Source: Anadara kagoshimensis (lineage: Eukaryota; Mollusca; Bivalvia; Arcoida; Arcidae). From it: 64,000 bases of DNA. The stretch covers positions 73,134,009-73,198,008 of the forward strand of contig CM037861.1 in assembly GCA_021292105.1 (NCBI GenBank), given 5' to 3'. The position numbers and the translations under genes are program-made. Shown piece after piece: positions 10,050 to 52,780 of the stretch. Within the stretch, counting starts at the first letter, position 1. Each line of letters begins with the position of its first letter. Under the pieces are notes generated by a model. That model searched no databases. It was not told the DNA's origin and saw only the letters and a list, made by a program, of their open reading frames with translations.

Positions 10050-10380
10050 GACAGAGTTGTAAGGAGGTTTTTGACAGATTCGCTGAAATTGTCACAAGAA
10101 GAGGTTACGAAAATGCTATTTACCGCCGTACATATATATGCTACCTAGTGGGGACGAGAAAAAAAGGAATATAATTGTAAGGTTTAGTAGTCTTATCGAT
10201 AGGGATGAGGTTTTAACAAAAGCTATGAAGTTGTCCCGTGGGTCAGGTTTCAGTGTCACACCAGATTTGGCCCCTGAAACAAGCAGACTCAGATCACAAC
10301 TACTACATGAACGGGCCCAGTTACCTATGGAGGACAGGAAAAGACAAAATAATATATATAAGGGAATATCCGTTCGTTAA
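10050..10380 (+). pseudogene. L1-like ORF1 C-terminal fragment (LINE-1)
   Basis: L1 ORF1 proteins are RNA-binding chaperones of the retrotransposon RNP. This fragment shows the C-terminal domain pattern of that family: KKRNIIVRF, DRDEVLTKAMKL, VTPDLAPETSRLRSQLL. The frame from 10138 is open for 80 codons to the stop at 10378-10380. The preceding 90 bases are also coding in a neighbouring frame (DRVVRRFLTDSLKLSQEEV), so a small indel near 10130 breaks the frame. The coiled coil and RRM are missing by 5' truncation. The first ATG at 10138 is probably not a real start. Confidence 0.75.
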
Positions 10381-10691
10381 ATTAGTTAAAAGAAATTATT
10401 GAAAGCATTCATATTGACTGACTTTACGTTGAGTTTGCCTTTCGTGTATTTAGAAAGTGCCTGAAAAACATTTTTGTTGTCTACAAATTAAACCGTAAAA
10501 TGATTTATATATAGACAATTTATATTCACCATTTACATTATATTTTTTCATAGTACTTATTGACTTTTGTTACAAGCAAGAGGAACTGTTGACTGAAAAC
10601 AAAACTGTTTACGTTCTCACAAGGTGTTGCCGGTAACACGTGGTTTTTATGCAAATTATATAGAAAGCTCAATTATGACCCCGCACCGGTG

Positions 10692-10781
10692 TATGCAAAT
10701 TAGGGAAGGTCGCGCTGGACGTCGTCATTATATACCTGAGGTTATCGATCGATAATAGAATGACCTTCCCTTGTTTGCATA
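10692..10781. repeat. Imperfect 20-bp inverted repeat with palindromic loop
   Basis: TATGCAAATTAGGGAAGGTC at 10692-10711 pairs with the reverse complement of 10762-10781 with two mismatches. The 50-base loop contains the perfect palindrome TTATCGATCGATAA at 10742-10755. It could form a cruciform or RNA stem in the LINE-1 spacer. Confidence 0.7.
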
Positions 10782-10815
10782 GAACCTGCAACTTATTTTT
10801 TACTCTGATTTGTAT

Positions 10816-10848
10816 CAGAAGTCCATTAACACTATTAATGGGCTTCTG
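10816..10848. repeat. 14-bp hairpin with 5-base loop
   Basis: The arms CAGAAGTCCATTAA (10816-10829) and TTAATGGGCTTCTG (10835-10848) pair throughout if one U:G wobble is allowed in plus-strand RNA. The loop is CACTA. It lies between the two E-box/octamer modules, upstream of the NADAR frame. Confidence 0.7.
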
Positions 10849-10948
10849 TTTGTATTGATATAGCCTAGATGAAATTTATAGGAAATAAAATAGTAACTCT
10901 GGCAAAGTAATTTAAAATATATGGAACACGTGATATTTATGCAAATTT

Positions 10949-11488
10949 TTGCAGTTTTTGTACCCGTCATGCAACTTGCTATCCTATAAAACATCGACTG
11001 CATTGAACGTTTTTTCTCTCTTTTCTTCTATCTTTTTAGGCAGAGAATTAGACATATATGTTCGTGGAAAAGATTGCGTATTATCAAACTTTTACCTCTG
11101 TAAAATTACTGAAAACGATGAAGATTTCTCAAGTGCTGAACATTTATATCAGTATAAAAAAGCTGTGTTTTTTAAATACTTTACTCTGGCCAGTGACATT
11201 AAAAATGCAAAATCAGCTAGCGAGGCAAAAAAATTATATAAATTTACTCGGAAATCTGCTGCATCTTATAATTGGTATGATCAGAAATCAGAAGTTATGA
11301 AAGACATATTACAATTAAAATTCGAAATGGTTCCGGAATTTCGCACGGCATTACGCGATACTCTATCTAGTAAAATTATTCATAATGTACCACATAAGTT
11401 CTGGGGCACAGCAAAAAGTGGACAAGGAGGGGAAAATCATTTTGGAAAACTACTGATGGAGTTGAGAGACGAAAATTTTTTACAATAG
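10949..11488 (+). CDS. NADAR-domain (YbiA-like) accessory ORF of LINE-1
   Basis: The NADAR superfamily (PF08719; E. coli YbiA, COG3236) comprises N-glycosidases acting on NAD/ADP-ribose-type and riboflavin-intermediate substrates. Some members remove ADP-ribose from nucleic acid bases. The domain covers about 11070-11470. Visible family motifs are DCVLSNFY, the active-site-type SAEHLYQYKKA, VMKDILQLKF, and HKFWGTAKSGQGGENHFGKL followed by LMELR. The frame is intact to the TAG at 11486-11488 with no frameshift, unlike ORF1 and ORF2 of the same copy. No usable ATG precedes the domain. The open frame begins with a TTG at 10949, and a strong splice acceptor ends at 11039, so the protein probably starts in an upstream exon. 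It sits between ORF1 and ORF2 of LINE-1, where LINE-A and LINE-B carry an IMPACT-like ORF. An alternative is a captured host exon. I am confident of the domain, less so of the gene structure. Confidence 0.83.
   Translation: MQFLYPSCNLLSYKTSTALNVFSLFSSIFLGRELDIYVRGKDCVLSNFYLCKITENDEDFSSAEHLYQYKKAVFFKYFTLASDIKNAKSASEAKKLYKFTRKSAASYNWYDQKSEVMKDILQLKFEMVPEFRTALRDTLSSKIIHNVPHKFWGTAKSGQGGENHFGKLLMELRDENFLQ
11009..11040 (+). promoter_or_regulatory. Strong candidate 3' splice site before NADAR domain
   Basis: A long pyrimidine run (TTTTTTCTCTCTTTTCTTCT, then ATCTTTTTAG) ends in AG at 11038-11039. The NADAR homology begins a few codons after it. The NADAR frame has no upstream in-frame ATG, so a spliced leader exon would supply one. 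No donor site could be assigned with confidence. Confidence 0.5.
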
Positions 11489-11694
11489 TTTTTTTTTGTT
11501 ACACCATAAAAAAGAAGATACTTTCAATGCATTTTGATGTGTTTATACCCCTGCCATGGCATATACATGTAAGTGTAGTCATGTATGTCGGTGTAGGTGG
11601 GATATTATCCTATTTGATTAAATTAACTTTATGTTAATTAAATTAACATATTTCAGAAGGCAACTTCGTTACTATGTCGCACAGCGTCTCTCGT

Positions 11695-11703
11695 TAGTAC
11701 CAG

Positions 11704-11710
<7 letters not shown>
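11695..11710. repeat. LINE-A target-site duplication, left copy
   Basis: TAGTACCAGAATTTTT at 11695-11710 is identical to 17949-17964. The left copy runs into the T-run that is the minus-strand LINE's poly(A) tail. Together they bound LINE-A exactly. Confidence 0.85.
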
Positions 11711-11742
<32 letters not shown>

Positions 11743-11865
11743 TTTAAGTTGTAATGTGTTTTATTTCCATAGAATTCACAATCCTTCACACAATATGTGT
11801 GAGTAAATTTGTTATACTACAGCAATATATAAGATAGTAAATACGTAATTAATTAATAAATTATA

Positions 11866-11868
<3 letters not shown>

Positions 11869-11906
<38 letters not shown>
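11869..11906. repeat. (TA)n microsatellite
   Basis: About 19 TA units in the 3' UTR of LINE-A. Similar short TA runs occur at 16420-16434 and 39383-39413. Confidence 0.9.
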
Positions 11907-11913
<7 letters not shown>

Positions 11914-11929
11914 TACAGTACGGATCTGT

Positions 11930-12119
11930 CTAAAGTTTAACACTGAGGTAACGAAAAGAATTGATGATCAGCTGCCGAACTCCGATGTATGAATAACTAG
12001 TGACCGAAGCTGCTGATATATATACGACAACAGCTGTTATATGTTTTATTAACGAAAGTAGGCGATTAGCTTTCGATTCGACATCCATTCGTTAGCTCAG
12101 TGTTAAACTTCCGCCAGGC
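11930..12119. repeat. Foldback module in LINE-A 3' UTR
   Basis: AAGTTTAACACTGAG (11933-11947) is perfectly complementary to 12096-12110. The pairing continues with one mismatch through GTAACGAA (to 11955) against TTCGTTAG (from 12088). The whole ~190-base unit resembles 51062-51276 in LINE-B, for example GAGGTAACGAAAAGAAT and GGATTAGCTT. The LINE-B unit has its own, differently sequenced matching arms. Confidence 0.7.
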
Positions 12120-12154
12120 TTGTACTGTAACAATAAATACATTCTATAGAAAAA

Positions 12155-12224
12155 GTGTGTGTGTGTGTGTGTGTGTGCCAAAAAATGCATGTGTGTGTGT
12201 GTGAAGTGTGTTGTTGAGAGCGAG

Positions 12225-12257
<33 letters not shown>
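12155..12257. repeat. (TG)n and (AG)n microsatellites
   Basis: TG runs at 12155-12177 and 12190-12203 and an AG run at 12227-12257, all within the 3' UTR of LINE-A. They generate spurious repetitive ORFs on the minus strand. Confidence 0.9.
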
Positions 12258-12261
<4 letters not shown>

Positions 12262-12575
12262 GCCCGACATCCTTGCGAGTTCTGACGCACTAAATCGATG
12301 TACAAACGCTAAAACACGCATGAATATCCCGTGCGTGACTTTAAAGAGGTCAATACATGTGGTGTATGATACCGTGGATATATAAAAATGCTGTGTTTGT
12401 GATATATATGATGTATATAAAGATATGGATTTTATTGTTATTTTGTACCGTAAGTTATCTTTCTATATAATTTTTTGATAATTTATTAAAACTAAATATA
12501 TTGAAAGAGTGTTCTTTTATCAAAGTAAATCCTGTCATGCGTGAAATGTGTAAACAAAAATTTAAGAATATAACA

Positions 12576-15500
12576 TTATAATGTTTCATACTCAAAAATA
12601 TTTTCCAATATATGCCAATATTCATAGTATACGTTGTAGTTACAGTTTTTAAATAGCAAATATTTTTCAGCTGCCAATTTGGTTTCAATATAGTGCCTTA
12701 GTGAATTTATATTTGGCTTTTGTTTTTGTAATCTTTTGCTGTAGATAAAACATTTAGTATTTAATATTAACCAGTTCAGTGCTTTATTTCTTTACCAGCG
12801 AATTCTGTACCAAAAACGATTGTTTGCTTATCTAACCGAAATGTTTTTCTAAATTTAATTTCAAGCATTTTTTGCAAGCTGTCCCATATTTTGTTTACGT
12901 AACTACATTGGAAAAATAAGTGTTCAATGGTTTCATCATGGATATCGCAAAAGGTGCACAAGTTTGAATTAACAATTTTAATTTTATACAGGAATGAATT
13001 AGTAGCCAAAATTCTGTGTAAGATTCTATATTGTAACCATTGTACAGCAGTTTCTTGACAGCATTTAAAAGATAATATGTAGTTCTTTTCCATTGTTCTT
13101 CTGGAAAATCGTATCCAAATTCTGTCCACTTAGACTGTGCCGTGGGAGTAGTGTTGCATTTGCATAAAATTTCATAGATTGGTTTACAACCTGATTTGTA
13201 ACTCATCAAAACTTTCATATTTTGAGGTATAAAGGGCTGTGATGCTTTGGAAGATATACTATTCCCATCATATCTAAATAAAATAGCTTTATTGCTTTAA
13301 TTAACGTGGCATATTCCAAAAAAAATGTTTTTATTCCAAATGTCTTCTTAAAATCTTCAAAATTTTGAAATTTACCATTTTTGTCTAAAATATCATTATA
13401 TATATATACCTGCTTTCCAGTAATTTTTATAGAAAAGTGTTTTCCCCCCTATTGCTATGTCCTTATTATACCATATATTATGTAATTCTAAATTTTCTCT
13501 TTCTGATAATTTAGCTTTATTTTGTACTATACCCCAGCTATACAACACATCTTTCCAAAAAAGGTTACTAGTTCTTTCCATCAGCAAAATAGTATAGTCA
13601 TTTCCGAAATTCATAAGTTCATTGATACTAGAATTTGTTTCAGACTCAAACAGATAATTCTATTTTGAATCATTGAAAATGAGTCTTCTTATCCATGATG
13701 TCTTAAGAGCAATCAAAAAATTGTAAATATTTATCATTTTTAAGCCCCCTCATCATGGTTCTTATTTAATATCTTTCTTTTAATTTTTTCTATTTTTGAT
13801 TGCCATATGAAATTATAAAATAACTTGTTTAACTCATCTAAAAATTTAACTGGCGGGTTGGGCAAGGATATTAGTAAATGAACCATTTGAGAAATTATTA
13901 GAGTTTTCACAAGTGTAATTCTGCCAATCACAGTTAATTTTCTCTTACCCCATTGGTTCATAATGTTTTTCATTTTCTGGAGCACGTGTGTATAGTTTAA
14001 TTCATTCATCTTAAATAGGTCAACTGAAAAGTTTATACCTAATAAAGTAAAATTTTCCGACCCCCATTCCAGCTTCCACCTATCATGGTGATAAACATCT
14101 CTTGAAATTTTTTCTTACCTATCCATATAACTTTAGTTTTTAACGTGTTAATACATAACCCCGATATTTGAGCAAATAAATCCAATACTTGAAGTGCACT
14201 GTTTAGAGACTTGGGAGACCCATCTAAAATGAGACTTGTGTCGTCCGCATACTGCGAAATTTTATATTCTTCTCCATTTATTTCAATACCTTTAATTTCT
14301 TTAGAATTTCTTATAAGGATAGCCATCACTTCTGCACACAGAATAAAAATATAGGGCGATAAAGGATCTCCTTGTCTACATCCTGTTTGTAAAGTAAAAC
14401 TTTCGGACAAAAATCCATTTTGTAGAACTGCTGAATTTGAATTTTTTTAAAAAAGTAGTAATCATAGCCAGTTAATAATTGAATCTTTAAAATTAAACAG
14501 TTTTAAAACGTCTTTTATAAAATCCCAAGAAACCGAATCAAAAGCTTTTTCAAAATCTATAAGTACTAACAGACCAGGTATGTCGTGTTTTTCAGTATAA
14601 TGCATAATGTCGTAAATTAATCTAATATTTTCCCCTATGTATCGACCTTTTAGAAACCCCGTTTGATCCTTATTGATAAGTTTGTCTAATACCCTTTTAA
14701 TTCTATTTGCTATGCACCCACTGGCAATTTTGTAAGTAATATTCAACAGGCTAATGGGTCTCCAATTTTTTATATATTTTTTGGGTTTATTCGGTTTTGG
14801 CAAACATGTTATTACTCCAAATTTTTGTGTAACAGATAGAACACCTTCTTTATTACCATAATTTATGGAACGAACTAAATATACCCCTAAATTTTTCCAA
14901 AAGAATTAAAAAAATTCTGCAGTAAAACCATCAGACCCAGGGCTTTTGTTATTTTTCATTGTCTTCAAAAAGTCAAGCGCTTCTGTATATGTAATATCCC
15001 CCTCCAGTTGTAAAGCTTCATTATCACTTAATTTTTCAAAAGAACAGTTACGTAATATATCATGCAGTTCCATATTATTATTTATGTCTCTGGAAGAATA
15101 TAATTTTTTTTTATAAAATTTTCTCATTTCTTTAAGTATTTCATTTTGTTCCGTTATTGAATTTCCACTTTCGGTTTCCAGATTTAAAATTAATTTATTT
15201 GTGTAATTTCTAGATTCTAAGCTGCAAAAGTATTTAGTTGGTTTTTCCCCGTCCTCAATGAATTGAGCCCTTGATCTTATATAATGTCCTTTCATTTTAA
15301 TTTGTCTTAGTGTTTTTAATTTTTCTCGTTTGTTTTCTAAACTTTCCGATTGTACAGCAGTTTCATCTTGTTCTAATTCGTTTATTTCTTTAATAAGTTT
15401 AGTTTCATTTAGTTTGTTTTGTTTGTTTTTAAAAATAGCGTATGATATTGTTTTAGATCTTATTTCAAGGAGCAGCATTTCAAAGAATAATTGATCGTCA

Positions 15501-16351
15501 ATTCTGAACTGAAATTCACTGTCTAATATCGATTCTATGTTTTCGATATTATATACGGGTATCATATATTGAATCTTTATTTGCTGAATAAGTTCTATAA
15601 TTGTTTTAACATACTTTTGATCTTTTAAAAGTGAATTATTGAATTTTCATAGACCGGGCCCCCGTTTTAATTTGTCTAGTTTTAAAGATAGCACTACTCC
15701 AGAGTGGGTCTGATCTATAACTGTTTTCTATTTTAATATTTTCTACATCCTGTATTAATGTATCACTTATTAGATAAAAATCAAGTCTTGCTTGCTTTAA
15801 GGGATTTCTTTTCCTCCAGGTATACATTCTTTTTTCTGGAAATAATTCTCTAAAAGGGTCAATGAAATTGTTTAGATCTTTATGTTCCTTTATTATCTGT
15901 TTTGCTTTCAAATTATTTTCGTGTTTATAATTCATTGTGTCAAGATTTTGTTCAAGTACTAAATTAAAATCCCCGCAAATTATCACATAATTATTTTCAA
16001 ATTCTTCGATATCTAAAAACATTTGCTAAGGTAAATCTTTTTTCATTTATAGTTAAGTCTAAGATCAAACAGTTTCCATATAAATCATTTTTAACTCTAT
16101 GGACTTTATATTCAAAGTTATTATTAAAAAATATTGCTACCCCTCGTGAGTTGGTAGAGTATGAATTAAAAATACATTGATATCCCCATTGGTTTTGTAT
16201 ATATGGTTCCATTTTTTTTTTTATCAAAATGAGTATCTTGTAGACAGTAGATATTGTATTTTTTGCATTTTAGATAATTGAATACATCTCGTCTCTTTTC
16301 TGAGTCTCCCAGTCCCTGACAGTTTACAGTTAAAATATTAAACAAAGTCAT
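12576..16351 (-). pseudogene. L1-like ORF2, endonuclease plus reverse transcriptase (LINE-A)
   Basis: ORF2 nicks the target and copies the RNA. From 16351 leftward: APE-type endonuclease (TVNCQGLGD, CLQDTHF, ICGDFNLVLEQ, KQARLDFYLIS), a linker (15565-14906) ending in NNKSPGSDGFTAEFF, reverse transcriptase (NWRPISLLNITYKIASG, LLVLIDFEKAFDSVSW, GCRQGDPLSPYIF, SQYADDTSLI), thumb (RKLTVIGRITLVKT) and the C-terminal knuckle CTFC...HLFFQC near 12900-12950. The end, missed if only long frames are read, is a KYLLFKNCNYN block with its stop at 12576-12578. About eight frame changes break it. The conserved endonuclease SDH is SDP here (near 15705), so even the domain would be inactive. The ATG at 16351 matches the ORF2 starts of LINE-B and LINE-1. 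Confidence 0.88.
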
Positions 16352-16460
16352 AATTATAAATCTTAAGTATTACATATTCTACTTATAAACACACAACATT
16401 CTGGTTTAAAAAGGATAATATATATATATATATGCCACATATTTGGTAAATGAGAGGGCG

Positions 16461-16463
<3 letters not shown>

Positions 16464-16497
<34 letters not shown>

Positions 16498-16521
16498 AAG
16501 AGAGAGAGAGAGAGAGAGAGA
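16464..16521. repeat. (GA)n microsatellite
   Basis: Two GA runs (16464-16494 and 16501-16521) separated by TATAA, in the spacer just upstream of LINE-A ORF2. The Arg-Glu-rich ORF read through them is an artefact. Confidence 0.9.
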
Positions 16522-16679
16522 TTAGTAAATACCGACGTGTATAGAGCTGGACATTTAAGGTCAAAAATACGACTTTTTTCTTCTGGACGCTTACTTTATT
16601 TTGGCAGAGTACCAGTAATTGAAATTATCCATGAGTAGTTCATAATATACTGGTATTGTCAACAACCATCCACACTTAA

Positions 16680-17110
16680 TATTATATAGTGTGTCCGTTA
16701 TAAATACCGCGCGACAAGGCGTGACTATATACTAGCGTAATTTATTCATTATTGTATGGTCCGTGTGCGACACCTTGACGGGTCCTTCACAGACCAAGAA
16801 GAGTCCACACAGTGTAAAATAGGGACCATATATAAAGACGGCTTTGGCCAAATGAACTCAATAAGGCGTGAATATATACAAAGACCAAGAAGAGTCCACA
16901 CAATGTAAAATAGGGACCATATATAAAGACGGCTTTGGCCAAATGAACTCAATAAGGCGTGAATATATACAAAGGATAGTACAGTATCAATTTATGTGTG
17001 GTATGGACTCGCCCGTGTCTATAAATGACTCCCGTCAAAACATCGTAGACTCGCCAGTGTTTGTAAACAATGTCCATATATTATACCGCGAAACCACACA
17101 TATTTGTCAA
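16680..17110 (-). promoter_or_regulatory. Conserved LINE spacer with TATA-like block and 91-bp duplication
   Basis: Between the IMPACT ORF and ORF2, a 91-bp unit is tandemly duplicated (16792-16882 and 16883-16973) with one or two differences. It contains GGGACCATATATAAAG and AAATGAACTCAATAAGGCGT. The corresponding spacer of LINE-B (50590-50700) has GGGACCGTATATAAAGGC and AAATGAACGCGTTGGCGTGA. The TATATAAA lies on the plus strand, antisense to the LINE. Conservation in non-coding DNA of two elements suggests a promoter or RNA structure. The role is inferred. Confidence 0.5.
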
Positions 17111-17535
17111 TAAAATGCTACAATGCTATTTTTGCCATGTATTCTGCCAAAATACAGCATGCGACTTAAACCTGATCATATTTTCTGATAAATTCCATCT
17201 TTTTTAGATGTAAATACATATTTATTATCAGTATTAGGATTATAAAGCGTATAAATATCATGCGTATTTACAATATTAAATGGTTAGTAAGGATCGCTTA
17301 TGATACTTTGGCATGTCTATATAGCTGACACAGTGTTTATTAAATATCGACGGATTTACATTATTGACGACTTCCACATATTTAATACTTTCATTTTTCG
17401 CGTTACTTGCTTTGACATACCTACGTATCATGAGCGGTTCTTAATGACCTACACTATGTATGATCACCTGCAAAATAATAATTATCAAAAATCGTCCAAT
17501 GTCCGGTTACTGTGTAAATACAGTTATTATAGAAA
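17111..17535. other. LINE-A spacer, remaining part
   Basis: AT-rich spacer between the IMPACT ORF end and the conserved block. No further structure could be supported. The plus-strand ORF at 17300-17761 is antisense to the accessory ORF and has no domain. Confidence 0.5.
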
Positions 17536-17907
17536 TCAAAGTTTATTAATAGCTTCCCTGCCTACTTCAACTATGTGTTTAAACCTTAAAGGTCCAAGTT
17601 TTTCACCAGATACCCTTGAAACGACAACAAGTTTATTTGTAACATCGTTTTCCTGTAAGTATTTAAGAAGTGTTGAACCTGCTCCAAATTCCCCGTCGTC
17701 ATCGAAACCATCGTGTATACGTCCATCTTTGTCAGTAAACCGATATGCCGTGATATTATGATCAGCACGTATTGTTAACTGGTCGCGTAGAATTTGTTTT
17801 AGAGCCTCGCGTGTTTCATGGTATGTAGTTGTTGATACTGCTCGCCCAGTAAACTCATTTCCCCTGTCACGTAATGGGTTGCTTTCACTTATGTGTTCAA
17901 ATTTCAT
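17536..17907 (-). CDS. IMPACT/UPF0029-like accessory ORF (LINE-A)
   Basis: UPF0029 (PF01205) is the ancient domain of IMPACT/Yih1 and bacterial YigZ. In eukaryotes IMPACT/Yih1 binds GCN1 and dampens GCN2 signalling. The 123-residue frame carries the family pattern: a helix with TREALKQIL, HNITAYRF, GFDDDGEFGAG, LLKYLQ, then LVVVSRVSGEKLGPLRF and KHI. The usual WYGG after the VVVSR strand is replaced by VSGE. The ATG at 17907 is the first in frame, but the frame is open up to the LINE edge. A TTTTAGAT just upstream (IMPACT frame TTA GAT) matches the ORF1-stop overlap in LINE-B. The frame is intact while ORF2 of the same copy is badly broken. No RWD domain is present, so it is only the small ancient domain. 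Confidence 0.83.
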   Translation of the reverse strand: MKFEHISESNPLRDRGNEFTGRAVSTTTYHETREALKQILRDQLTIRADHNITAYRFTDKDGRIHDGFDDDGEFGAGSTLLKYLQENDVTNKLVVVSRVSGEKLGPLRFKHIVEVGREAINKL

Positions 17908-17948
17908 GTCGCTGTTTTCCGGATCTAAAATTTCTGAGGCTTTTGGAA

Positions 17949-17964
17949 TAGTACCAGAATTTTT
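17949..17964. repeat. LINE-A target-site duplication, right copy
   Basis: Identical to 11695-11710. It marks the 5' end of the minus-strand LINE-A and the point where LINE-1 sequence resumes. Confidence 0.85.
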
Positions 17965-17984
17965 GTCAGTTCTCTTGGCTAATT

Positions 17985-18090
17985 AAGGTAGGTGGTTTTC
18001 TCCGGGTACTCCGGTTTCCTCAACTGTCCCAAAACTGACCACTTTGGTATCATGGAAGTATCCTTGACTGGGACATAAAACTCCACTTAT
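17985..18090 (+). mobile_element. SINE central-domain fragment in LINE-1 spacer
   Basis: GGTGGTTTTCTCCGGGTACT, running on into CCGGTTTCCTC at 17991-18021, has the pattern of the conserved core domain shared by several metazoan SINE families. A relaxed version on the other strand occurs in the SINE copies at 21921-22330. It lies between LINE-A and the start of LINE-1 ORF2, so it is either an insertion or a domain shared by LINE and SINE. Confidence 0.5.
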
Positions 18091-18471
18091 TTATCCATCC
18101 ATCGGTTATATGTTAGTCTAATGATAGAGGATATTGGTCACTATAAAATATGCAGCCTTTTGTGTCAGTAAACTTTTACTATAAATGTATTCACTTATCC
18201 TTGCTAAAGGGCTGCAGATTTCGATAGTGAACTATATCACTGATATGAGGTCTACACAACTCGGAGCGTAGATTCCAACTATTATAGATTTTAATTATTA
18301 GTTATAGAATAATGTTTTCGGAAGTTTCGAGACATTCTGGGAGGGTAGGGGATTATGATATATATATGAAGAAAACGTCTTCCAAGCTTTTAATAATTTA
18401 TTTTTTATTCACATTTGTACAAATGATACTAACCTGTCCCGTGTGTAGAAATTATCTAATATTATCTGGTC
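18091..18471. other. LINE-1 spacer upstream of ORF2
   Basis: About 380 non-coding bases just before the ORF2 ATG. Nothing specific is seen except AT-rich runs and a GGGAGGGTAGGGG stretch near 18339, which is a weak G-rich tract. Confidence 0.4.
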
Positions 18472-21184: not shown

Positions 21185-21330
21185 CCAAGACCAGGGTTGG
21201 GCGAGCCTCAAAATGCAATAGGGAAAGAAAAATACAGCGACCAAACCGAGACTCGAACCCAAGACCTTCCCAACAATACTAGCGGGATATACTACGTCGT
21301 AACTACCGGGTTCGGTCAACCATACTTGCT
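21185..21330 (-). mobile_element. tRNA-derived SINE head (B box visible)
   Basis: On the minus strand GGTTCGAGTC (21250-21259) matches the Pol III B box, preceded at tRNA-like distance by CCGGTAGTTACGACGTAG. It reads like the tRNA-related 5' region of a SINE rather than a functional tRNA: no acceptor stem pairing could be built. It lies within the 5.1-kb insert. Confidence 0.4.
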
Positions 21331-38629: not shown

Positions 38630-38640
38630 AGACTTTTCTA

Positions 38641-38979: not shown

Positions 38980-39035
38980 ATCCTGATCCGTGTGACGTGT
39001 CAAACTGATCACTTGGCCGTTACATTGGTAGTTTT

Positions 39036-41616: not shown

Positions 41617-44600
41617 AAAGGACTGTTGTAGAAGGCCAACAAACAGTCCAAGATAATAACAAAAGTGGCCTAACAGAACATGATAGAGAGGAAAATATGA
41701 AATCAGATGAAGTTAAATTGATACATGATGAGGAAAACAGAAACCGCTGGAGAAAAAGAATTCCAAATGATGCAGGTGTATATGTACAAGGAAAACTAAA
41801 TGGTGTCGAAGTCATTTTTACAACAGATACAGGAGCATCCAAAACCATTATAGCTGAAAGAATATACAAAAGTATACCAATAGATAGGAGACCTGCCTTA
41901 TCAAAAGCCACCAACATAACTGGAGCAGGGGGCAATATTTTAAACAACCTTGGAAAAGCAGATTTTGTATTTCAATTGGGGCCTGTGGAAGTAAAAAGTG
42001 AGGCTATTGTTGCTAAAATCCAAGATGACGGTTTGCTGGGGATCGATATATTGCAGAACGGAGATGAAGGCCCAGCCGATATATTATTAAGTGAAGGGAA
42101 AATACGATTAAATGGAGCTGAAATTCCCTGCGTACAAGTTGGCATGCCAGAAGAAATTTGTCAAGTGAAGTCAGCTGATAACTACACTATTCCAGGATAC
42201 AGTGAAGCAATAATTGATACATTTATTGAACCGAGACCTCCCTATAGTGAAGTTCTTCTAGAGCCAACAGCATATTTTAATGACCATTATCCACTAAAAA
42301 TGGCTTCAAGTGTTGTCGACATTGCTGGCAATGTAACTGTTAAAGTAAGAATATTGAACTTGTTTCCTACAGAGGCCAATATACACCTAGATGCTGTTAT
42401 TGGAAATGCTGAACCATTTAACCAACTACATGTATTATTGGATGAAGAAGAACAGACTGAAATTGCAAACTTTGACCAAGTGCGGCAGCTGAAATTTACA
42501 GATGTCCAGGAGAATGAAACCAGCATAAAAGAAAACACCTTAACACAGACGAGATCAGGTGGCAATGAAATAAATACCTGTGACTTAAATGTAGTCAACA
42601 CCGTTCCTGAACACTTAAAAGAATTGTATGACCGAGCTATAAAGAATTGCACTCCTCAGAAGCCAAGTTAATAGCAGAAACCCTAATACAGTCTCAGGAC
42701 GCATTCTCGAAAAATGAACATGATTTAGGCTTAACTCATCTTGTCGAACTTACAATTGATACCGGGAATGCCCGCCCTATCAAACAACGACCTAGGAGAG
42801 TGCCAATGGCATTTGCAGACGAAGAAAAGAAAATCATTGAGCAACTTGAACAGCAAAATGTTATCAGACCATCGTGTAGTCCATGGGCGTCACCATTAGT
42901 ACTAGTTCGTAAACGAAATGGAAAAATAAGGCCATGTGTAGATTACCGACTTGTGAATCAAGTTACAGTTAAAGATAGTTTTCCCTTACCACGAATACAA
43001 GATTGTCTAGATGCAGTGGCAGGAGCTATTATTTTCAACATTTGATTTAACATCCGGGTATCATCAGATTCCAGTAAGGAAGAGGATATCCCAAAAACTG
43101 CTTTTGTGACTAAGTATGGCTTATGGGAATTTTCTACGCTCCCATTTGGAATGACGAATGGCCCTGCCTGTTGTCAGCGACTGATGGAAATTGTGTTAAA
43201 CGGATTACAATGGCAAACTTGTCTAATATATATTGATGACATCATTGTCTATGGGCGCAATTTTACGGAACATATGCAAAGACTGACCGAAGTCCTGAAA
43301 AGAATAAAGGCTGCTGGACTGAAGATGAAACCAGAAAAGTGTCATCTACTACAGGAGGAAGTGGAATTTTTAGGTCATGTTGTATCAAAGAATGGCGTAA
43401 ACCAAATATGGACAATGTTGCAAAATTATTACAGTCACCGGAACCCACTACCGTAACCGAAGTGAGACAAATTTTGGGAATGGGCAGCTATTATCGGAGT
43501 TTATACCAAAATTTTCTGAGTTAGTTAGGCCTCTAGTCAAACTTACGCACAAGAACAGTGAATTTAAATGGACAACGAATTGCCAAAATGCATTTGATAA
43601 ATTAAAACAAACTCTAGCAAGTCCAGATATCATGGCATACCCAATGAATGATGGCGAATTTATACTGGACACAGATGCAAGCGACTTTGCATTAGGTGCA
43701 GTACTAAGTCAGATCCAGGACAACAGAGAAAAAGTGATAGCTTATGGAAGTCGGACAATGAGTAAATGTGAAAGGAACTACTGTGTAACCGACAAGGAGC
43801 TACTAGCTGTACGATATTTCGTGGAATACTATCGACAGTATTTACTAGGCAGAAAATTCAGAGTGAGAACAGATCACCAAGTTGGTTGTTCAGCCTCAAA
43901 GAACCAACAGGCCGTATTGCCCGGTGGATAGAAATCCTGTCGCCATATGACTTCCCAGTGGAACATAGACCAGGTACAAAGCATGGGAACGTAGATTTCA
44001 TGTCTCGATGTGCTAGCCCACGTGAATGTGAATGCTATAAAGCGGATAACATGGAATATTTGAAGTGTGGTCCTTGTAGGAAATGTCAGAAAAGAAATAC
44101 GGAAATGTTCGGTAAATATCAAATGAATCAAACAGAGATAGGGGCTTCTGTCAAAGCAGAGGGTAAAACTGAGGATCTAATAGATGCCAGTCTAAACCAG
44201 CAACCATCTGCTAGTGAACCCGCAAGTCCAAGCTAAGCAGAGGGTACCCCGAAAATCATTACTAGAATGGTAACAACAAGGTCACAAAGTAAGGACACAA
44301 CTCCTGACCTTCAACCAAATACACCGTCCAAGGTACCAACTTGGGTTGATCAAAACATCAATAAAATTCGAAAGATGCAGGAAACAGATATTGACATTGG
44401 TCCTATAAGTCAAGCAATGAAAATCGGAAAACGACCATTGTATTCGGAAGTTGTGACTCTAAGTCCTGCAACCAGACACTATTGGCAGTTATGGGATTCA
44501 TTGGAGTTACATAATGGCATTTTGTTCCGACGTTTCTACAGAAGAGATACTAGCGGTGAACATTTACAACTTATGGTTCCAAAAGCCCTAAAGCAGGAAG

Positions 44601-45701
44601 TCATGTACCAAATGCACAACGTTATTACATCAGGACACCTCGGAGAAAGAAAACAAGAGAAAAGACTTTACAACGGTTTTATTGGTTCGAACTCAGAGAG
44701 GACGTGAATAACTATGTAATGAAGTGTGAAATTTGTGCTGCTACTAAACCCCCAATCAGGAATCCACGAGCACCAATGGGAACAATGACAGTTGGAGCAC
44801 CTCTAGATCGTCTTTGTACAGATATATTAGGGCCATTACCCCTACACCCAGAGGAAATCGACATATCTTATTGGTCACTGATCACTTCTCTAAATGGGTG
44901 AAATATTTGCTATTCCAGACCAAACAGCCATCACTTGTGCTGGAGTAATACTAAATGAAGTTATTTGCCGCTATGGTTGTCCATTATATATCCACTCCGA
45001 TCAAGGGCGTAATTATGAAAGTGAAATTTTTAGTGAACTATGCAGAATGCTAGAAATAAAGAAAACCCGAACCAGTGCCAGAAATCCACGTTGTAATGGG
45101 TTAGCCGAACGTTTTAACAGTTAGAATGATTAGAGCCTACCTCCGTGGACAACAGACAGACTGGGATTTAAACTTGGGTTGTTTAGCAGCTGCATACCGA
45201 GCAACACCACAAGAGTCAACAAGAGTGACCCCAAATTTACTCATGTTGGGTCGTGAAGTCCGATTACCAACTGAAATCATATATGGCAGTACTACTGAGA
45301 CCGGGGAATGTAATAACAATTATGGTCAATATGTGGAGACACTACGTGACAATCTTCAGAACGCCCACGAAATTGCAAGAAAACACCTGGGTTCAGCTGC
45401 CAAGCGCCAGAAGGATTCTTATGATTCTAAACTATCCGTGTACAATTACCAGATAGGAGATTTAGTATGGTATTTAAACGAAGCTAGAAAAGTTGGTGTT
45501 TGTCATAAATTACAGCCCGCTTATGTTGGACCATGCCTTATAACACGAAAGTTCAACGACCTGAACTACCAAATACTTACTGATAGAGAGGGCCATATTA
45601 AGACGGTTCATCACAACAAAATGAAACCATATGAGTGTGACCAAATACCAAAATGGCTAGAAAAGGAGAAGAGACATGTGATGAATCTGGCCAAATTATG
45701 A
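41617..45701 (+). pseudogene. pol: Gypsy Pol: protease, RT, RNase H, integrase (frameshifted)
   Basis: Pol matures Gag, copies the RNA and integrates the DNA. Domains in order: aspartic protease with DTGA at 41826-41837 and LLGIDIL near 42036; RT with SPWASPLVLVRK and RPCVDYR, LPFGMTNGP and the catalytic YIDD near 43229-43240; RNase H with DTDASDFALGAVLSQ, DKELLAV and RTDHQ (43665-43880); integrase with an HHCC finger (HNVITSGHLGE...CEIC), DD35E residues near 44820, 44998 and 45106, and a GPY/F-type C-terminus (PAYVGPCLI). Frames change near 42647, 43035, 43080, 43400, 43525, 43885, 44240, 44690, 44890 and 45120, so this copy cannot make Pol. All catalytic motifs are nevertheless conserved. 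No chromodomain is seen. Confidence 0.92.
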
Positions 45702-46188: not shown

Positions 46189-46200
46189 AACGGAAGTTTT
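46189..46200. repeat. LINE-B target-site duplication, left
   Basis: AACGGAAGTTTT, repeated exactly at 52781-52792. The left copy merges into the T-run that is the element's poly(A) tail. Confidence 0.88.
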
Positions 46201-46566
46201 TTTTTATTTTTTTTTTATATTTTTATTATTTTTAATGACACATAACATGCTATAATCATACAATAAAAAGAGCATAGTATACAAATACTAACAGAAAGAC
46301 AAATAAAGACATTTCTTAACACAGTTACATGTTTTATATATAAAGGGAGATAATTCACATATTTTGGGTGCTTATCAGGTTATATTAATTAATTCCACAT
46401 ATGTGTATGGTAGAAATAATGCCTTCTACATATCTAATGGTAGTCTTTAATATTTATTATGTAAAAAATAAAATTGGATACACAAATGGTTAATTGCTTA
46501 TTTCCTTTTAAGGAAATCCTAAAGAATATTAAAGGTCATTTGGGGAGGGGGGAGAACAGTTATATC

Positions 46567-49500
46567 TTAAAACAAATTCATCCAGTGCTTCCAATATTTA
46601 TCGTATTCTTGCCATTTACAGTTCTTAAACATAATATATTTTTCGATAAAAAAATATTCTTGCAAGTAGTTTTGTAAACTAAGTATGTGAACCTCTGATT
46701 TTTTCAATTTCATTTTAAAAATATAGTACTTAGTGTGTAAAATTATGAAGTTAATAACTTTATTTGCTTTTAATGACATGGTTTTTCCAAACAGGATTGA
46801 TAGTAGATCAAGGTTTAGGTCAATTTGTAATATATTTAGTATCCAGGTTTGTAAATCATTCCATAGAGTATGTACCTTTGGGCAATAATAGAACAAATGC
46901 TCTATAGATTCCACTATATTCTTACATTGATTACAGTTTTTATCTGAAAAAATAGTTTTATATGTTAAATAGGAATTTGTTTCAATTATTCTATGTAAAA
47001 TCTTGAACTGAAACCACTGAATTGTAGTATTTTGTGTTGTTTTGAATGGAAGTAAATATATGTTTGACCATTTCTGGTTAGCAATGTAAATACCTTGATC
47101 AGACCATTTAGATTGACTAGTTGGTGTTTCTATTTTACTTTTGGCAAGAATATGATAAATATCTCTGCATCCTTTTGGAGATTTTATTAGAATTTTAAGA
47201 TTTGGTGGTATATGGCAATCAAAATAGCTTATTTAAGCTATTGTAGTCAAAATTACATTTCTTTAGATAACATCTAACAGTGGTAATCAAACTGTTAAAC
47301 TCCAAAAAATTTGTGTTTAAGTTGTAAACATTTAAAAAAGAATCATAACAATATAAAATACCTTCTCGTCAAACAGATCTGAAATAATTCTAATGCCGTT
47401 ATTAAAGTAATGCTTATAGAAAATAGTGTGTTTATCAATTATAATATCTCTATTATACCAGATGTGAGCATTTAGAATATCACTATCACTAAGAGGGGTA
47501 GTTTTATGAGTAAAAAAGTTCCAGCTATTGAACACATCTAACCAAAATTTATTATTCAAATTATCTGTAAGTTCTGAGATATATTCTGGACCTAATTTGA
47601 AGATGTTATCTAGTTTACCATTACAAATAGTTTCTAATAACCTGTACCATTTTGTATTTGTATATAAAAATCTTCTGATCCATGACACTTTTAGAGATTT
47701 CAAAAATAAATCTAAATTAATCATTTTTGCACCCCCTTCTTCATAGTTTTGTATCATTACATTTCTCTTTATTCTATCCACCTTTGACTGCCATATAAAC
47801 TGAAACAGTGTTGAGTTTAAATCATCTACAAATTTAGAGGAAGGGTTTGGCAGACATAAAAGTAAGAATGTTAATTTAGATAAAATGAGGGATTTAAGGA
47901 TTGTGATTCTTCCTAGAACTGTGAGATTTCTTCTATTCCAAGATTTGATCAGTTTGTTTATTTCTAAAAGCTTATTATCATAATTCAGTGATTCAATTTC
48001 ACTGATGGTTACAGAAAAAATAATTCCAAGCAATGTGAATTCTTGTGAGCCCCAATTTAATTTCCATTTTGAATGGTGGAAAACTTCCTTTGAAAATTTT
48101 TTGCTACCAATCCAGATAACTTGTGTTTTTGAAAAGTTAATTTTCAAGCCTGAAATTTTGGCATAATAATCAGAACATTTAGTGAAGAGTAAAGAGATTT
48201 CGCAGAACCATCTAAAAGAAGAGAAGTATCGTCAGCATATTGCGATATTTTGTAAATTTCTCTGTCAATACAAATACCTTTTATATCTTTGTTATTTCTA
48301 ATATAGATACCTAATATTTCTGCACATAGAAGAAAAATGTATGGACTCAATGGGTCACCTTGTCTACACCCCTGCCTATTGCAAAGAAGTTGGATAAAAA
48401 ACCACTTTGGGTTACTGATGATGATATGTTATTGTAGAAAGTATTTACCCAGTGTTTTATAGAGTGACCAAAATTAAAGAAATCTAATACTTGTGAAATA
48501 AAATTCCATGATATCGAATCAAAAGCTTTCTCAAAATCTATTAGAAGTAACATACCAGGTATATTTTTATCTTCAACATATTTCATGATATCGTATATTA
48601 AACGTACATTTTCTCCAATGTATCTACCTTTTATAAAACCTGTTTGATCTGGGTGGATCAATTTGTCTAACACTGTTTTCATTCTTTCTGCGATACAACC
48701 AGATGCAATTTTATAAGAAGTGTTAAAAAGACTAATAGGGCGCCAGTTTTTTAAATATTGCTTGGGCTTGTCTCCCTTAGGTATACAACTTATCACCCCT
48801 CTCTTTTGTGTAATTGAGAGTTCCCCACATGCATAGCCATAATTTAAAGAACGTATTACAAAGTGCCCCAAATCTATCCAAAAAAAACTTATAAAATTCA
48901 GTGGTGTAGCCATCTGTGCCAGGACTTTTGTTATTTTTCATTTTCTTAAGGTATGATAATGTTTCTTGATATGTTAGTTCTCCATTTAGACTATTTGACT
49001 GTTCTTCACTTAATTTTGGAATATTGTAGTTTTTTAAGTCTTCAGACCAATTTTCACTGATATTTTCTGAATGGCTAGAGTACAAGTTACTATAGAATTT
49101 TTCTACTTCTGATAATATTTCAGCTTGATTAGTAATAAACTTTCCATCTCCTCTGTCAATTTTGGGTATTATTTTATTTATAAAATTTCTATTTTCAAGG
49201 TTACAAAAATACTGAGATGGTTTCTCGCCTTCGTCAATCCATTTAGCTTTTGAACGTAGGACATTTCCTCTCAATTTTTCTTCTCTAATTTTTATAAGTT
49301 CAGTTTTTTAGATTGTAGTATGTCTTGATTTGGTAGGGCATTATTATTTTCTAAGGAGTCTATTTCTTTCACTAGCTTATCAATAGTTTTATTTCTACTT
49401 TTCTTAATAAAAGACGAATATGAGATGGTTTTACCTCTTATCTCCATGAGCAAGGTTTCAGAGAAAAGTTGATCATTAATTGTAAATTTTATTTCTGAGT

Positions 49501-50368
49501 TAGGAATTTTGTCAATATTTTCTAGATTGTAAATAGGAAGGGAGTACTGTTTTTTAACTTCATTAATAAGGTTTTTGATGTTATTTACATACAACTTATC
49601 TTTCAATAATGAATTATTAAATTTCCAAAGACCCTTTCCACGTTTGAATTCATTTAATTTAACAGATAGCACAACAGCAGAATGATCAGTTCTGTAACCA
49701 GATTCGACATTGCATTGTTCTAGACTTGGCATAAAATTTGAAGATACTAAGAAAAAATCAAGACGAGCTTGTTTGACAGGAGTTTTCTTTCTCCAAGTAT
49801 AACGTTTTAAATAGGGATGGAATTGTCTAAAGGGATCTATTAATGAGAGCTCTTCTATAATTTCTTTTATTTTTTTGGTGGCATTTGGGTTGTTATGATG
49901 TTTATAGTTGTAAGTGTCTAGTTTTTGATCTAGTACTAAGTTAAAATCACCACAAACAATAAGGGTTTCATTATTAAAAGTTTCCAATACATGAAATATT
50001 TCATCATAGAAGCAGGGATTATCTTCGTTTGGACCATAAAGTGTTAATAAAGTTACATTTTTATCGTTAAATGAGAGGTTTAAACCCAAATAATTACCTC
50101 TTGGGCATTTCTTAATGTCATGATTTTTATAATCAAAGTTGTTCCTGAAGAGAATGGCTACACCTCTAGAGTTTGATTTGTAAGAGCTAAAGTAACAATC
50201 AGAGCCCCATTGAGTCCTTACATAGTTTTCTATTTCTGGAACAAAATGTGTATCCTGTAGACAGCATATGTTATATTGTTTGCTATGTAAAAAACTAAAA
50301 ACGTCTCTTCTTTTCTTGTTATCACCCAGACCCTGACAGTTTATTGTAACAATTTTTATATCACACAT
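46567..50368 (-). pseudogene. L1-like ORF2 (LINE-B), few frameshifts
   Basis: From the ATG at 50368: complete APE endonuclease (TINCQGLGD, CLQDTHFVPE, LYGPNEDNP, VCGDFNLVLDQ, QARLDFFLVS, YRTDHSAV) in an open 358-residue stretch. Then linker, RT (NWRPISLFNTSYKIASG, LLLIDFEKAFDSISW, GCRQGDPLSPYIF split by a frameshift near 48370, SQYADDTSLLLDG), thumb (RRNLTVLGRITILKS, FQFIWQSKVDRIKRN) and the knuckle CNQC...HLFYYC near 46880-46930. The stop is at 46567. Frameshifts lie near 49306, 48886, 48370, 48175, 47350 and 47230, several in or beside homopolymers (A6, T8). All active-site residues are present. The number of single-base indels in a young copy makes assembly error plausible. Confidence 0.9.
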
Positions 50369-50505
50369 ATTCTGTTTACCAATATACAGAAATGCAAGTA
50401 AAAAAGTTGATGATATAACATGTTTGTGTCAATTTTGTATATAGAACACACGGACAAGGGAAAAGGACAAATACAAAGAAGGACAGGACAAACAAGGTTT
50501 GGTTA

Positions 50506-50525
50506 GGGTTAGGGTACCCTAACCC
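50506..50525. repeat. Telomere-like palindrome
   Basis: GGGTTAGGGTACCCTAACCC is a perfect 20-base palindrome made of TTAGGG-type repeats meeting at GTAC. AAGGTTTGGTT also repeats on both sides (about 50494 and 50530). Confidence 0.75.
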
Positions 50526-51061
50526 AACCAAGGTTTGGTTGCAGTATTTTGAAAAGTATGGCTAAAATATTCCGACAGAGTGCATACCAACACGGAAGAA
50601 TCTATATAATATTAAAAAGGGACCGTATATAAAGGCTATTTTAACAAATGAACGCGTTGGCGTGAACACACACATACCACAACAAAGTATTACTATACCA
50701 GACTACCCGGCTTTCTGTATTAGACCTGTAAATAGTATAAAAATAGACTCGACTGTGTTTATAAACACTCCGCCAAACACATCACGTACACATCGGAGTA
50801 CAGAAATAACACGATATGTTTGGGATCTGCAGTATGACTGTATAACAAATAATTTTTAAAAAGAACATGGTGACAGTATTTCGAAAAGACGTGAATGTAC
50901 AATTAGTGTACATGATCCGAATTTGTCGAAATATATACAATGGGAAATACAGCATTGTTATACCACAAATACTTAACTATAAAGTTAGTATACGGATGAT
51001 AGTATTTTTAAAATATCAAAGTTTTATCTATATACATCTATTTACATCATTTTACATTAGA

Positions 51062-51276
51062 GATCTGTCGAAAAGTCTAAAATTGAGGTAACGAAAAGAA
51101 TATCCAAACTGGCTGTCAGTAGGTGAAACATGGATAGCTAGTTTTAGAGAAGCTTTTGAGAGGTAGAAAAAACTGTTTAAAAGCTTTCGGAATATAGCTG
51201 ATCTACTGATAGGGGGATTAGCTTAACTAACCGTTTCGGTACTAATTTGTATTAACCTTTCGACAGGCCTGCAATG
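51062..51276. repeat. Foldback module in LINE-B spacer
   Basis: CTGTCGAAA at 51065-51073 is complementary to TTTCGACAG at 51258-51266, with weaker pairing continuing inward. It is homologous to 11930-12119 in LINE-A, with GAGGTAACGAAAAGAAT shared exactly, but the outer arm sequences differ between the two while each still self-pairs. Confidence 0.6.
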
Positions 51277-51408
51277 TATAGAGGTCGACTACATAATATA
51301 TCTAGTATCTTAGTATCGTGTCACACTCAATACATAAATAATCGGAAAATGTTTAACAGTAAATTTGTTACTAAGTTCGTGGGAAAAAATACTTCATGGT
51401 CGGAAATA

Positions 51409-51810
51409 TTACAGTTTCGTTGCTAAATCGCGCACTAGATCCTCCATAATGTTAAAACGTTTCGGGCCGATGTGTTTGGTGAACTTGCGCGTAATAACAT
51501 AAGTAATGTCAATAATATTGTTTTGTGTCACACATTGTAGGAGTTTTCTTCCGGCGCCGTGTTCCCCGTCATCGTGATATCCCTCGTGTAGTTTACCATC
51601 TCTGTCTCTGAATCTATAGACGAGTATGCGATGATGCGCGCGGGCCGCCTCTGGATCACATGCGATTTTTTTATACATATTGCGGACACTGTTGACTGTA
51701 TTACATCGCGTTGCATAACCTGTAAATTGGTTTCCAGCTTCCGTAGTGCTTGCCGTTTCAACTGTAATGTTATCTAAAACCGTTTGTTCTTCTTGACTGA
51801 CAAAATATCT
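51409..51810 (-). CDS. IMPACT/UPF0029-like accessory ORF (LINE-B)
   Basis: Second copy of the UPF0029 (Impact_N/YigZ) domain. Motifs: HHRILVYRF, GYHDDGEHGAG, LLQCV, ITYVITRKFTKHIGPKRF. The usual VVVxRWYGG becomes VITRKFT, so the Gly pair is absent, as it is in LINE-A. The frame is open from 51810 and overlaps the last 37 bases of ORF1 (stop 51774-51776) in the -1 frame. The first in-frame ATG (51678) lies after the conserved N-terminal helix (NQFTGYATRCNTVNSVRNM), which aligns with NEFTGRAVSTTTYHETREAL in LINE-A. Translation must therefore start or enter upstream, perhaps by -1 frameshift or reinitiation at the ORF1 stop. IMPACT/Yih1 proteins act on GCN1/GCN2; the role in a LINE is unknown. 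Confidence 0.83.
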   Translation of the reverse strand, partial: RYFVSQEEQTVLDNITVETASTTEAGNQFTGYATRCNTVNSVRNMYKKIACDPEAARAHHRILVYRFRDRDGKLHEGYHDDGEHGAGRKLLQCVTQNNIIDITYVITRKFTKHIGPKRFNIMEDLVRDLATKL

Positions 51811-52631
51811 TCAGCTCGCATCATTGGTATTTTTTCCCGATAAACACTTCCGTTATTGAAGATAATTTTGTCTTTGACAATTCGTGTTTGCACATTTTGC
51901 TGTGTGTAGTTTTCGCGAACTTTGACCAGTCTTTTCCTTTGCTCAACAACTGGGACTGGGGATTGTGGTGTAATATAGAAGGGCAGTTCAACTTTCTGTT
52001 CTTTCTTTTGCTTTTGGGCTGCCAGAATATCGTCTTTCTGCATACGATTAACAAGTCGACCAGTGATGGAACGCGGTTTTCCTCCAGTTTTATTGTAAGG
52101 ACCGTTACGGTGTATATTAACAAAATCTACATTTATATCAAAAAGTTCTTTCAGGAGTTTTGGGATGTCAACTTTCAGGTTTTCCCCCCGATTTTCCGCC
52201 AAGTTGTGTATTAAAATGTTGTCTCGCATTGAACGACCTTTCAAGTCAAGTATTTCGGAAGCTTGTTCCGTTACCTTGCGATCCAAATTGATAACAACTG
52301 ATTTTAGGAGTTCTATTTCTCTTACAAGTTCGGAATTTGTACGTTTTAGAGAGACAATTTCTGAAGCATTATCTTCAGACTGCTGTGCAATATAATGTAC
52401 TTTACAATCAAGGCCATCCTTTGCCCAAACATCTGCCTTCAATTCATCCACAGTATATTTAAGCTGGTCATATTGGACTAATCGTGTGTTAATTTCGCGT
52501 AAACTGTCCTGTATACCAGGTAAAGTACTTAAAGCGTTACTTACTTCTACCGGTAACATATTACCTTGTACTGGTGATGAGTACTTTTCACGATTTGGTT
52601 TTGTAGTTTGTTTATGTCCTTCAAAGTTCAT
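51774..52631 (-). CDS. L1-like ORF1 RNA-binding protein (LINE-B)
   Basis: An intact 285-residue frame from the ATG at 52631 (a GTG lies 18 bases upstream) to TAG at 51774-51776. Residues ~30-150 form a heptad-rich coiled coil (LSTLPGIQDSLREI, IVSLKRTNSELVREIELLKS). Next comes an RRM-like part with RSMRDNILIHNLAENRGEN and VDFVNIHRNG, then the ORF1 C-terminal domain with KPRSITGRLVNRMQKDDIL, ITPQSPVPVVEQRKRLVKV and IIFNNGSVY. This trimer-forming coiled coil plus RRM plus CTD plan is that of L1 ORF1p (Transposase_22), an RNA-binding chaperone. The short 5' UTR lies at 52632-52780. Its end overlaps the IMPACT frame. Confidence 0.88.
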   Translation of the reverse strand: MNFEGHKQTTKPNREKYSSPVQGNMLPVEVSNALSTLPGIQDSLREINTRLVQYDQLKYTVDELKADVWAKDGLDCKVHYIAQQSEDNASEIVSLKRTNSELVREIELLKSVVINLDRKVTEQASEILDLKGRSMRDNILIHNLAENRGENLKVDIPKLLKELFDINVDFVNIHRNGPYNKTGGKPRSITGRLVNRMQKDDILAAQKQKKEQKVELPFYITPQSPVPVVEQRKRLVKVRENYTQQNVQTRIVKDKIIFNNGSVYREKIPMMRAEDILSVKKNKRF

Positions 52632-52780
52632 ATTTTGTGAAAATCTCACTAAAAGTCTAAAATAGCAGATTCCTGAAGTAATATGTTAAATCCTGATGCC
52701 AAAATTGACTTCAGTTTCGCCTTTTTCGCCCAAGATTTGACTTTTTACAGAGACCAAAAAAACACCGTCTACGCTGCTGT

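Follow-up and report, generated by a model that had tools for sequence, protein, structure and literature searches.

An IMPACT-type UPF0029 domain fused to the end of the ORF1 protein in a bivalve L1-like LINE family, with a NADAR domain in a separate L1-like element

The window, by which we mean the whole 64,000-nucleotide stretch of Anadara kagoshimensis contig CM037861.1 (positions 73,134,009 to 73,198,008, assembly GCA_021292105.1), is a pile of nested retroelements, among which three L1-like long interspersed nuclear elements (LINEs), LINE-1, LINE-A and LINE-B, are relevant here (Table 1). They display the features of non-long-terminal-repeat retrotransposons of the apurinic/apyrimidinic endonuclease (APE) type: an APE endonuclease and a reverse transcriptase (RT) in open reading frame 2 (ORF2), A-rich tails, and end repeats of 12-16 bp. 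In Pfam scans, LINE-B matched both PF03372 and PF00078, the scanned piece of LINE-1 matched PF03372 and that of LINE-A PF00078; the remaining ORF2 parts were assigned by similarity. LINE-1 is flanked by the exact repeat TTTTACTAAAATT (starts at 10037 and 27490) and LINE-A by TAGTACCAGAATTTTT (starts at 11695 and 17949), both of which fit target-site duplications (TSDs). Among random window pairs of equal size, a word that long was present in 1 of 2000 per element, a rough control, as the flanks were picked by eye after the repeats had been seen. In each element one pair of repeats encloses both the domain and ORF2, which therefore belong to a single insertion, nested insertions aside. LINE-1 is interrupted twice, by LINE-A and by a second insertion of ~4.9 kb in its ORF2 (~20650-25590), the flanks of which have no common word of at least 9 bases. 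Repeats of ~170 bp at 9540-10036 and 27503-27864 represent the target of LINE-1, now on its two sides.

Each of these elements carries a cellular domain ahead of ORF2. PF01205 (UPF0029) matched positions 17536-17982(-) in LINE-A (E 2.8e-19) and 51409-51810(-) in LINE-B (E 1.4e-14), both above the Pfam gathering score, and PF08719 (NADAR) matched 10934-11488(+) in LINE-1 (E 2.4e-23, 83.6 bits against a gathering score of 35.1). The domains named by the initial annotation of this locus are therefore all above the Pfam cut-offs, and its observation that unrelated cellular domains occupy the same relative place, after ORF1 and before ORF2, in different L1-like lineages is borne out. The order ORF1-accessory ORF-ORF2, which it had described for all three elements, is found only in LINE-B; LINE-A is devoid of ORF1, and LINE-1 retains a weak ORF1 remnant. 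The domain is separated from ORF2 by ~1040 bp in LINE-B, 1184 bp in LINE-A and 729 bp in LINE-1 (LINE-A left out), and none of these three intervals contains a frame of at least 110 codons on the element strand.

Table 1. Coordinates of the elements and domains discussed in the text (CTD, C-terminal domain; RRM, RNA recognition motif; LTR, long terminal repeat)
Feature	Position	Strand	Details
LINE-1	10050-27489	+	TSD 13 bp at 10037-10049 / 27490-27502
LINE-1 possible ORF1 CTD remnant, 97 codons	10087-10377	+	Weak profile match
LINE-1 NADAR domain	11036-11488	+	PF08719, YbiA 2b3w
LINE-1 ORF2, in pieces	18472-20639 and 25732-27345	+	Pfam and similarity
LINE-A	11711-17948	-	5'-truncated L1-like, within LINE-1; TSD 16 bp at 11695-11710 / 17949-17964
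LINE-A final ORF1 CTD residues in frame with UPF0029	17536-17948	-	PF01205, tblastn
LINE-A ORF2 (frameshifted)	12579-16351	-	Pfam and similarity
LINE-B	46201-52780	-	Full-length L1-like; TSD 12 bp at 46189-46200 / 52781-52792; A-rich 3' end
LINE-B ORF1 (coiled coil, RRM, CTD)	51774-52631	-	ATG 52631; tblastn of 52 homologues, family profile
LINE-B UPF0029/IMPACT domain	51409-51804	-	Frame -2; displaced C-terminal domain of the ORF1 protein
LINE-B ORF2 (APE endonuclease, RT, C-terminal part; frameshifted)	46567-50368	-	Pfam and similarity
Ty3/Gypsy-like LTR element	35943-57027	+	LTRs 35943-39024 and 54151-57027; ATAA on both sides

LINE-B ORF1 reaches a stop after a frameshift at its junction with UPF0029. 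With LINE-B ORF1 and UPF0029 read through this single frameshift as the query, a search among 3737 candidates, covering proteins of ~224-712 amino acids (aa; ~0.55-1.75x the query length), retrieved 52 proteins at E<=1e-3. A precomputed PF01205 annotation was present in 46 of them, and hmmscan at E<=0.1 detected the domain in 47/52. Thirty-three of the 52 are single proteins of 388-451 aa, and the 27 that we read have ORF1 first and UPF0029 at the end, except for the truncated and chimeric ones. The 23 homologues with an organism in their name are, we take it, all from bivalves. When the homologues were aligned back to the window by tblastn, their matches to LINE-B began in frame -3 (51 alignments) and continued in frame -2 (49 alignments), with the change of frame at ~51777-51801 in most of the six alignments displayed. 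By contrast with this two-frame pattern, all 47 alignments to LINE-A were in frame -2, several of them spanning the final residues of the ORF1 C-terminal domain (CTD) through UPF0029. The pattern of frames in the homologues and in LINE-A indicates that UPF0029 is the C-terminal domain of the ORF1 protein (ORF1p), and that LINE-B is frameshifted at the junction. LINE-A has no ORF1 because its 5' end, at 17948, falls at the junction between ORF1 and UPF0029. Programmed frameshifting was rejected for LINE-B, as the homologues and LINE-A are in frame; its frameshift would come from a mutation or from an error in the assembly. These data show that, in the bivalve family of LINE-A and LINE-B, UPF0029 is fused in frame to the end of a type II ORF1p, rather than standing in a slot as an ORF of its own, as the initial annotation had it.

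The body of this protein is that of an L1-type (type II) ORF1p: a coiled coil, a single RNA recognition motif (RRM) and a CTD were found both in the UPF0029 family and in LINE-B. A profile built from 15 homologues matched human LINE-1 ORF1p and yeast IMPACT, and the AlphaFold model agrees with a predicted layout of coiled coil, RRM and CTD followed by UPF0029. The same coiled coil-RRM-CTD order is present, by sequence and by fold, in human LINE-1 ORF1p (PDB 2yko, 2ykp and 2ldy); the solved ORF1p structures matched are all LINE-1 proteins of this bare kind, whereas the bivalve ORF1p has an added C-terminal UPF0029 domain of ~110 residues. This added domain belongs to the UPF0029 family by its score, above the Pfam gathering score, and by its common fold. 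Among solved structures, the nearest by sequence is IMPACT/Yih1 (PDB 6bqi), with which it has the C-terminal ancient domain in common; the bacterial UPF0029 structures 2cve and 1vi7 have the same fold and were absent from the sequence matches. Of the 18 best-conserved UPF0029 columns (>=90%), 12 are identical in Yih1, against 37/113 overall (Fisher p 0.002, one Yih1 sequence being used for the comparison). In the Yih1 ancient domain, the invariant motifs are described as lying in loops on one face (PMC4503747, in part), and the common residues suggest that this face seems to have been kept. The other half of IMPACT was not recovered: neither LINE-B ORF1 (Pfam) nor P0017 (hmmscan), the two proteins examined in full, gave an RWD match, and RWD is not among the 25 commonest of the 87 families listed for the other members. 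The element protein is thus not an IMPACT/Yih1 protein, defined by RWD plus ancient domain, and has only the ancient domain in common with it. In contrast to IMPACT/Yih1, this domain is joined to a retrotransposon RNA-binding protein, in which coiled coil, RRM and CTD precede UPF0029.

The 52 homologues were used in three alignments, with 15 proteins in A1, 43 in A2 and 52 in A3. Nine truncated or chimeric proteins were omitted from the 43-row alignment, and the 41 proteins spanning both parts were compared. Mean pairwise identity was 0.458 in the RRM-CTD part and 0.451 in UPF0029 (n = 41), and the distance matrices of ORF1 and UPF0029 were strongly correlated (Mantel r=0.895; 0/5000 permutations as high, permutation maximum 0.234). 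FastTree support reached 0.9 or more for 20 splits of one part and 21 of the other; 14 of these were in common and 0 in conflict. UPF0029 is a conserved trait of its LINE family. The congruence of the two trees points to a single capture after which the two parts were inherited together, and no sign of the cassette exchange that had been proposed for these elements was seen within this family. For the sampled family, a single origin of the fusion, with co-inheritance from then on, is most probable.

LINE-1 presents a different case. Its NADAR domain resembles YbiA (2b3w, E 1.6e-11), and the first in-frame ATG, at 11297, lies inside the domain, none being present before it. Upstream, the ORF1-like remnant matched the UPF0029-type ORF1 family weakly (hhalign E 0.066, probability 0.8%). 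A search at single-domain length returned 11 NADARs from metagenome collections, with 32-36% identity, and phage NADARs were up to 38% identical (best of 282 records). The NADAR active site comprises E43, K50 and E125 in P. nicotianae numbering, with His at the third position in phage NADARs (PMC11543638, in part). LINE-1 keeps the E43 and K50 positions; at the E125 position one alignment leaves a 2-residue gap and the alignment with 8bau places a His, the mapping of these numbers to LINE-1 columns being our own reading. The available part of PMC12477816 reports that several Tx1 LINE families of Crassostrea gigas have NADAR in their ORF1 proteins, and that NADAR is also present in the Pol of Ectocarpus Gypsy. 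What LINE-1 has in common with the elements described there is a YbiA-type NADAR in a bivalve L1-group LINE; it differs from the oyster Tx1 ORF1s in that the NADAR-ORF1 fusion is not seen, and it is likened to them by their published description. On the basis of that report, we read LINE-1 as a decayed member of the same kind, in which the NADAR domain is probably also part of ORF1. LINE-1 belongs to a separate L1-like lineage, with NADAR in a place equivalent to that of UPF0029.

A search of genome contigs retrieved six loci, L001-L006. L001, L002 and L003 lie in records labelled as Bathymodiolus symbiont assemblies, and we take these loci to be host DNA. L004 served as outgroup, and L005 and L006, which were weak matches, were left out of the trees. 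A first ORF2 tree was computed with FastTree on 8 rows, and an IQ-TREE run on 6 rows, with the partial LINE-0 and L003 dropped. In the tree of six elements, LINE-A and LINE-B grouped together (99), L001 and L002 formed their sister (100), and LINE-1 fell outside. The endonuclease-RT (EN-RT) columns of LINE-A and LINE-B are 58% identical, those of L002 are 57-60% identical to either, and those of LINE-1 44-47%. L001 has a further RT and endonuclease ORF directly upstream of its L1-like ORF2, and is uninformative on ORF1. In L002, ORF1 ends at 575 and ORF2 starts at 944, with a 92-codon frame between them. UPF0029 was not found in L002 ORF1 or in this frame, whose best Pfam hit (DUF2871, E 0.025) is below cut-off and unconvincing. 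L002 ORF1 itself matched no Pfam family, gave no PDB hit below E 0.76, and aligned weakly with the UPF0029-type ORF1 (hhalign E 9e-5, 74 columns, probability 59%). Copies lacking any ORF in the interval, which the initial annotation had counted against an exchangeable slot, are thus represented in part, by one sister locus whose ORF1 has no such domain. Among viral contigs, no relatives of the ORF2 endonuclease, ORF1-UPF0029, the ORF2 alignment, LINE-1 ORF2 or NADAR were found. UPF0029 in one clade, none in its sister (one locus) and NADAR further out fit gain, loss or whole-ORF1 replacement between clades. We saw no sign of exchange within the UPF0029 family, and these comparisons fit domain differences that lie between clades.

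LINE-B is inserted in the internal part of a Ty3/Gypsy-like element, so that LINE-B would be the younger of the two and its family would have been active after the Gypsy-like insertion. The LTRs of this host element are 98.6% identical outside gaps (2837 matches, 39 mismatches, 213 gap columns), and the flanking ATAA suggests a 4-bp duplication. The LTRs are unusually long, with a 46-bp minisatellite, and matches to a zinc-knuckle gag, protease, RT, RNase H and integrase lie at 39847-45701. Located 3' of pol in the same element, a 291-aa ORF at 52906-53781(+), with a C2H2 finger match below cut-off (E 0.003), is possibly an extra ORF of the Gypsy-like element. Elsewhere in the window, a fourth L1-like ORF2 fragment at 6278-7787(+) is 36% identical over 240 residues to the C-terminal part of LINE-B, and a distant LINE at 32615-35967(-), with endonuclease PF14529 and RT PF00078, is 23-25% identical to the L1-like ORF2s. 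Long tandem arrays of 22-bp and 25-bp repeats occupy 60440-62094, with open frames on the minus strand.

As a whole, we consider likely an explanation in which a bivalve L1-group family carries an ORF1p-UPF0029 fusion and LINE-1 represents a NADAR lineage. For the role of the captured domain we favour tethering, though only tentatively: UPF0029 would give the ORF1p-RNA particle a second conserved surface for binding and would tether this particle to RNA or ribosomes, so that the RNA of the element itself would be translated and packaged more readily. Other partners, for example actin, are candidates. Several points weigh against this explanation. Five homologues (P0043, P0050, P0054, P0058 and P0060) end before or within the domain and have no precomputed PF01205, P0050 giving a partial match below cut-off, and P0056, also without precomputed PF01205, is devoid of most of the domain. 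The length range of the search could return domain-free ORF1s and could not return separate short UPF0029 ORFs. Both the conservation and the congruence counts use proteins picked for having both parts, the domain tree was built without host IMPACT sequences, and the tie of the UPF0029-ORF1 family to ORF2 comes from LINE-A and LINE-B. In the family-profile search, the coiled-coil protein 7o97, which is not related to LINEs, reaches the same score as LINE-1 ORF1p (4.4e-4), by a match limited to the coiled-coil part. In LINE-1, ~0.6 kb with stops in every frame lies between the remnant and NADAR, so that fusion is not directly seen; repeats around this stretch do not decide between an insertion and a spacer, and a composite ORF1-NADAR query at fusion length found no relative (0/644 candidates). 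Finally, the function of the IMPACT/Yih1 ancient domain is called elusive in the consulted part of PMC4503747.

Among the other explanations, one is that ORF1 and its C-terminal domain were replaced as a unit between ORF2 lineages, as in the reticulate evolution of the Jockey superfamily. We regard it as possible but doubtful. It would account for the weak match of L002 ORF1 despite an ORF2 that is 57-60% identical to those of LINE-A and LINE-B over the EN-RT columns, and horizontal acquisition of ORF1 has been reported in CR1/L2 (Metcalfe and Casane 2014, PMC4120745, in part); a single sister locus with ORF1 is available, however, and fast ORF1 divergence alone could look alike. Cassette-like swapping of separate accessory ORFs among copies, in an exchangeable slot that lies between ORF1 and ORF2, is very unlikely. 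Two unrelated domains in an equivalent place, in lineages lying side by side, and a sister lineage without the domain at L002 speak in its favour, but UPF0029 is in frame with ORF1, the two trees have no supported conflict, and, in the small set of elements at hand, different accessory domains were never seen with two close ORF2s.

As to function, UPF0029 could act in the way of host IMPACT, antagonising the GCN1-GCN2 stress response so that the element RNA continues to be translated. Inhibition of GCN2 by IMPACT is reported (PMC5054600, PMC6550387, both in part), and the element domain is nearest to eukaryotic IMPACT by sequence among solved structures. Mutations in helix H3 of the Yih1 RWD domain, however, weaken its binding to Gcn1, and overexpressed Yih1 then no longer inhibits Gcn2, according to the part of PMC4503747 at hand, and RWD was matched in neither of the two proteins examined. 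As the RWD domain of IMPACT seems to be missing, a direct block of GCN2 through competition for GCN1 is less likely, and we judge this role improbable. For the same reason, the translation-stress control that the initial annotation attached to the domain is a weak reading. The least probable of all is that the domains have no role, being host-gene pieces inserted by chance or passengers in decay, an explanation to which we give hardly any credence: one active-site position of the LINE-1 NADAR is without its acid and the searches returned no close relatives, but UPF0029 is as conserved as the ORF1 core in 41 proteins and has 12 of its 18 top residues in common with Yih1.

The capture of domains by LINE proteins was already known. 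ORF1p of CR1/L2 LINEs with captured esterase and PHD domains (PMC3905857, PMC4120745) is likewise modular, with the added domains maintained, and insect Jockey ORF1 and TRAS ORF2 carry a captured viral helicase (PMC5563155). These concern other LINE clades and other domains, and the parts of these reports at hand do not mention UPF0029. Similarly, the statement that such elements had no standard description does not hold for NADAR, given the oyster Tx1 ORF1s, and does for UPF0029 as far as the PMC library searched goes, in which no paper linking UPF0029/IMPACT with LINE, ORF1, retrotransposon or transposable elements was found. A broader idea, to which we assign a low probability, is that the ORF1p C-terminus of bivalve L1-group LINEs is a recurrent docking point for captured domains that shield the ribonucleoprotein. 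If true, the IMPACT-type domain would act against translation shutdown or for ribosome access, NADAR would act against ADP-ribosylation of nucleic acids, and each lineage would have caught its own module, in the manner of counter-defence domains in large viruses. In annotation, some oyster gene models named "protein IMPACT homolog" (3/52 homologues) appear to be ORF1s of retrotransposons, not host IMPACT. ORF1p is described as the less well understood LINE protein (PMC4120745, in part), and a large natural family of ORF1p in which an IMPACT-type domain is kept about as well as the core offers a handle on its interactions, as well as on the binding partners of the widely conserved and poorly understood ancient domain of IMPACT.

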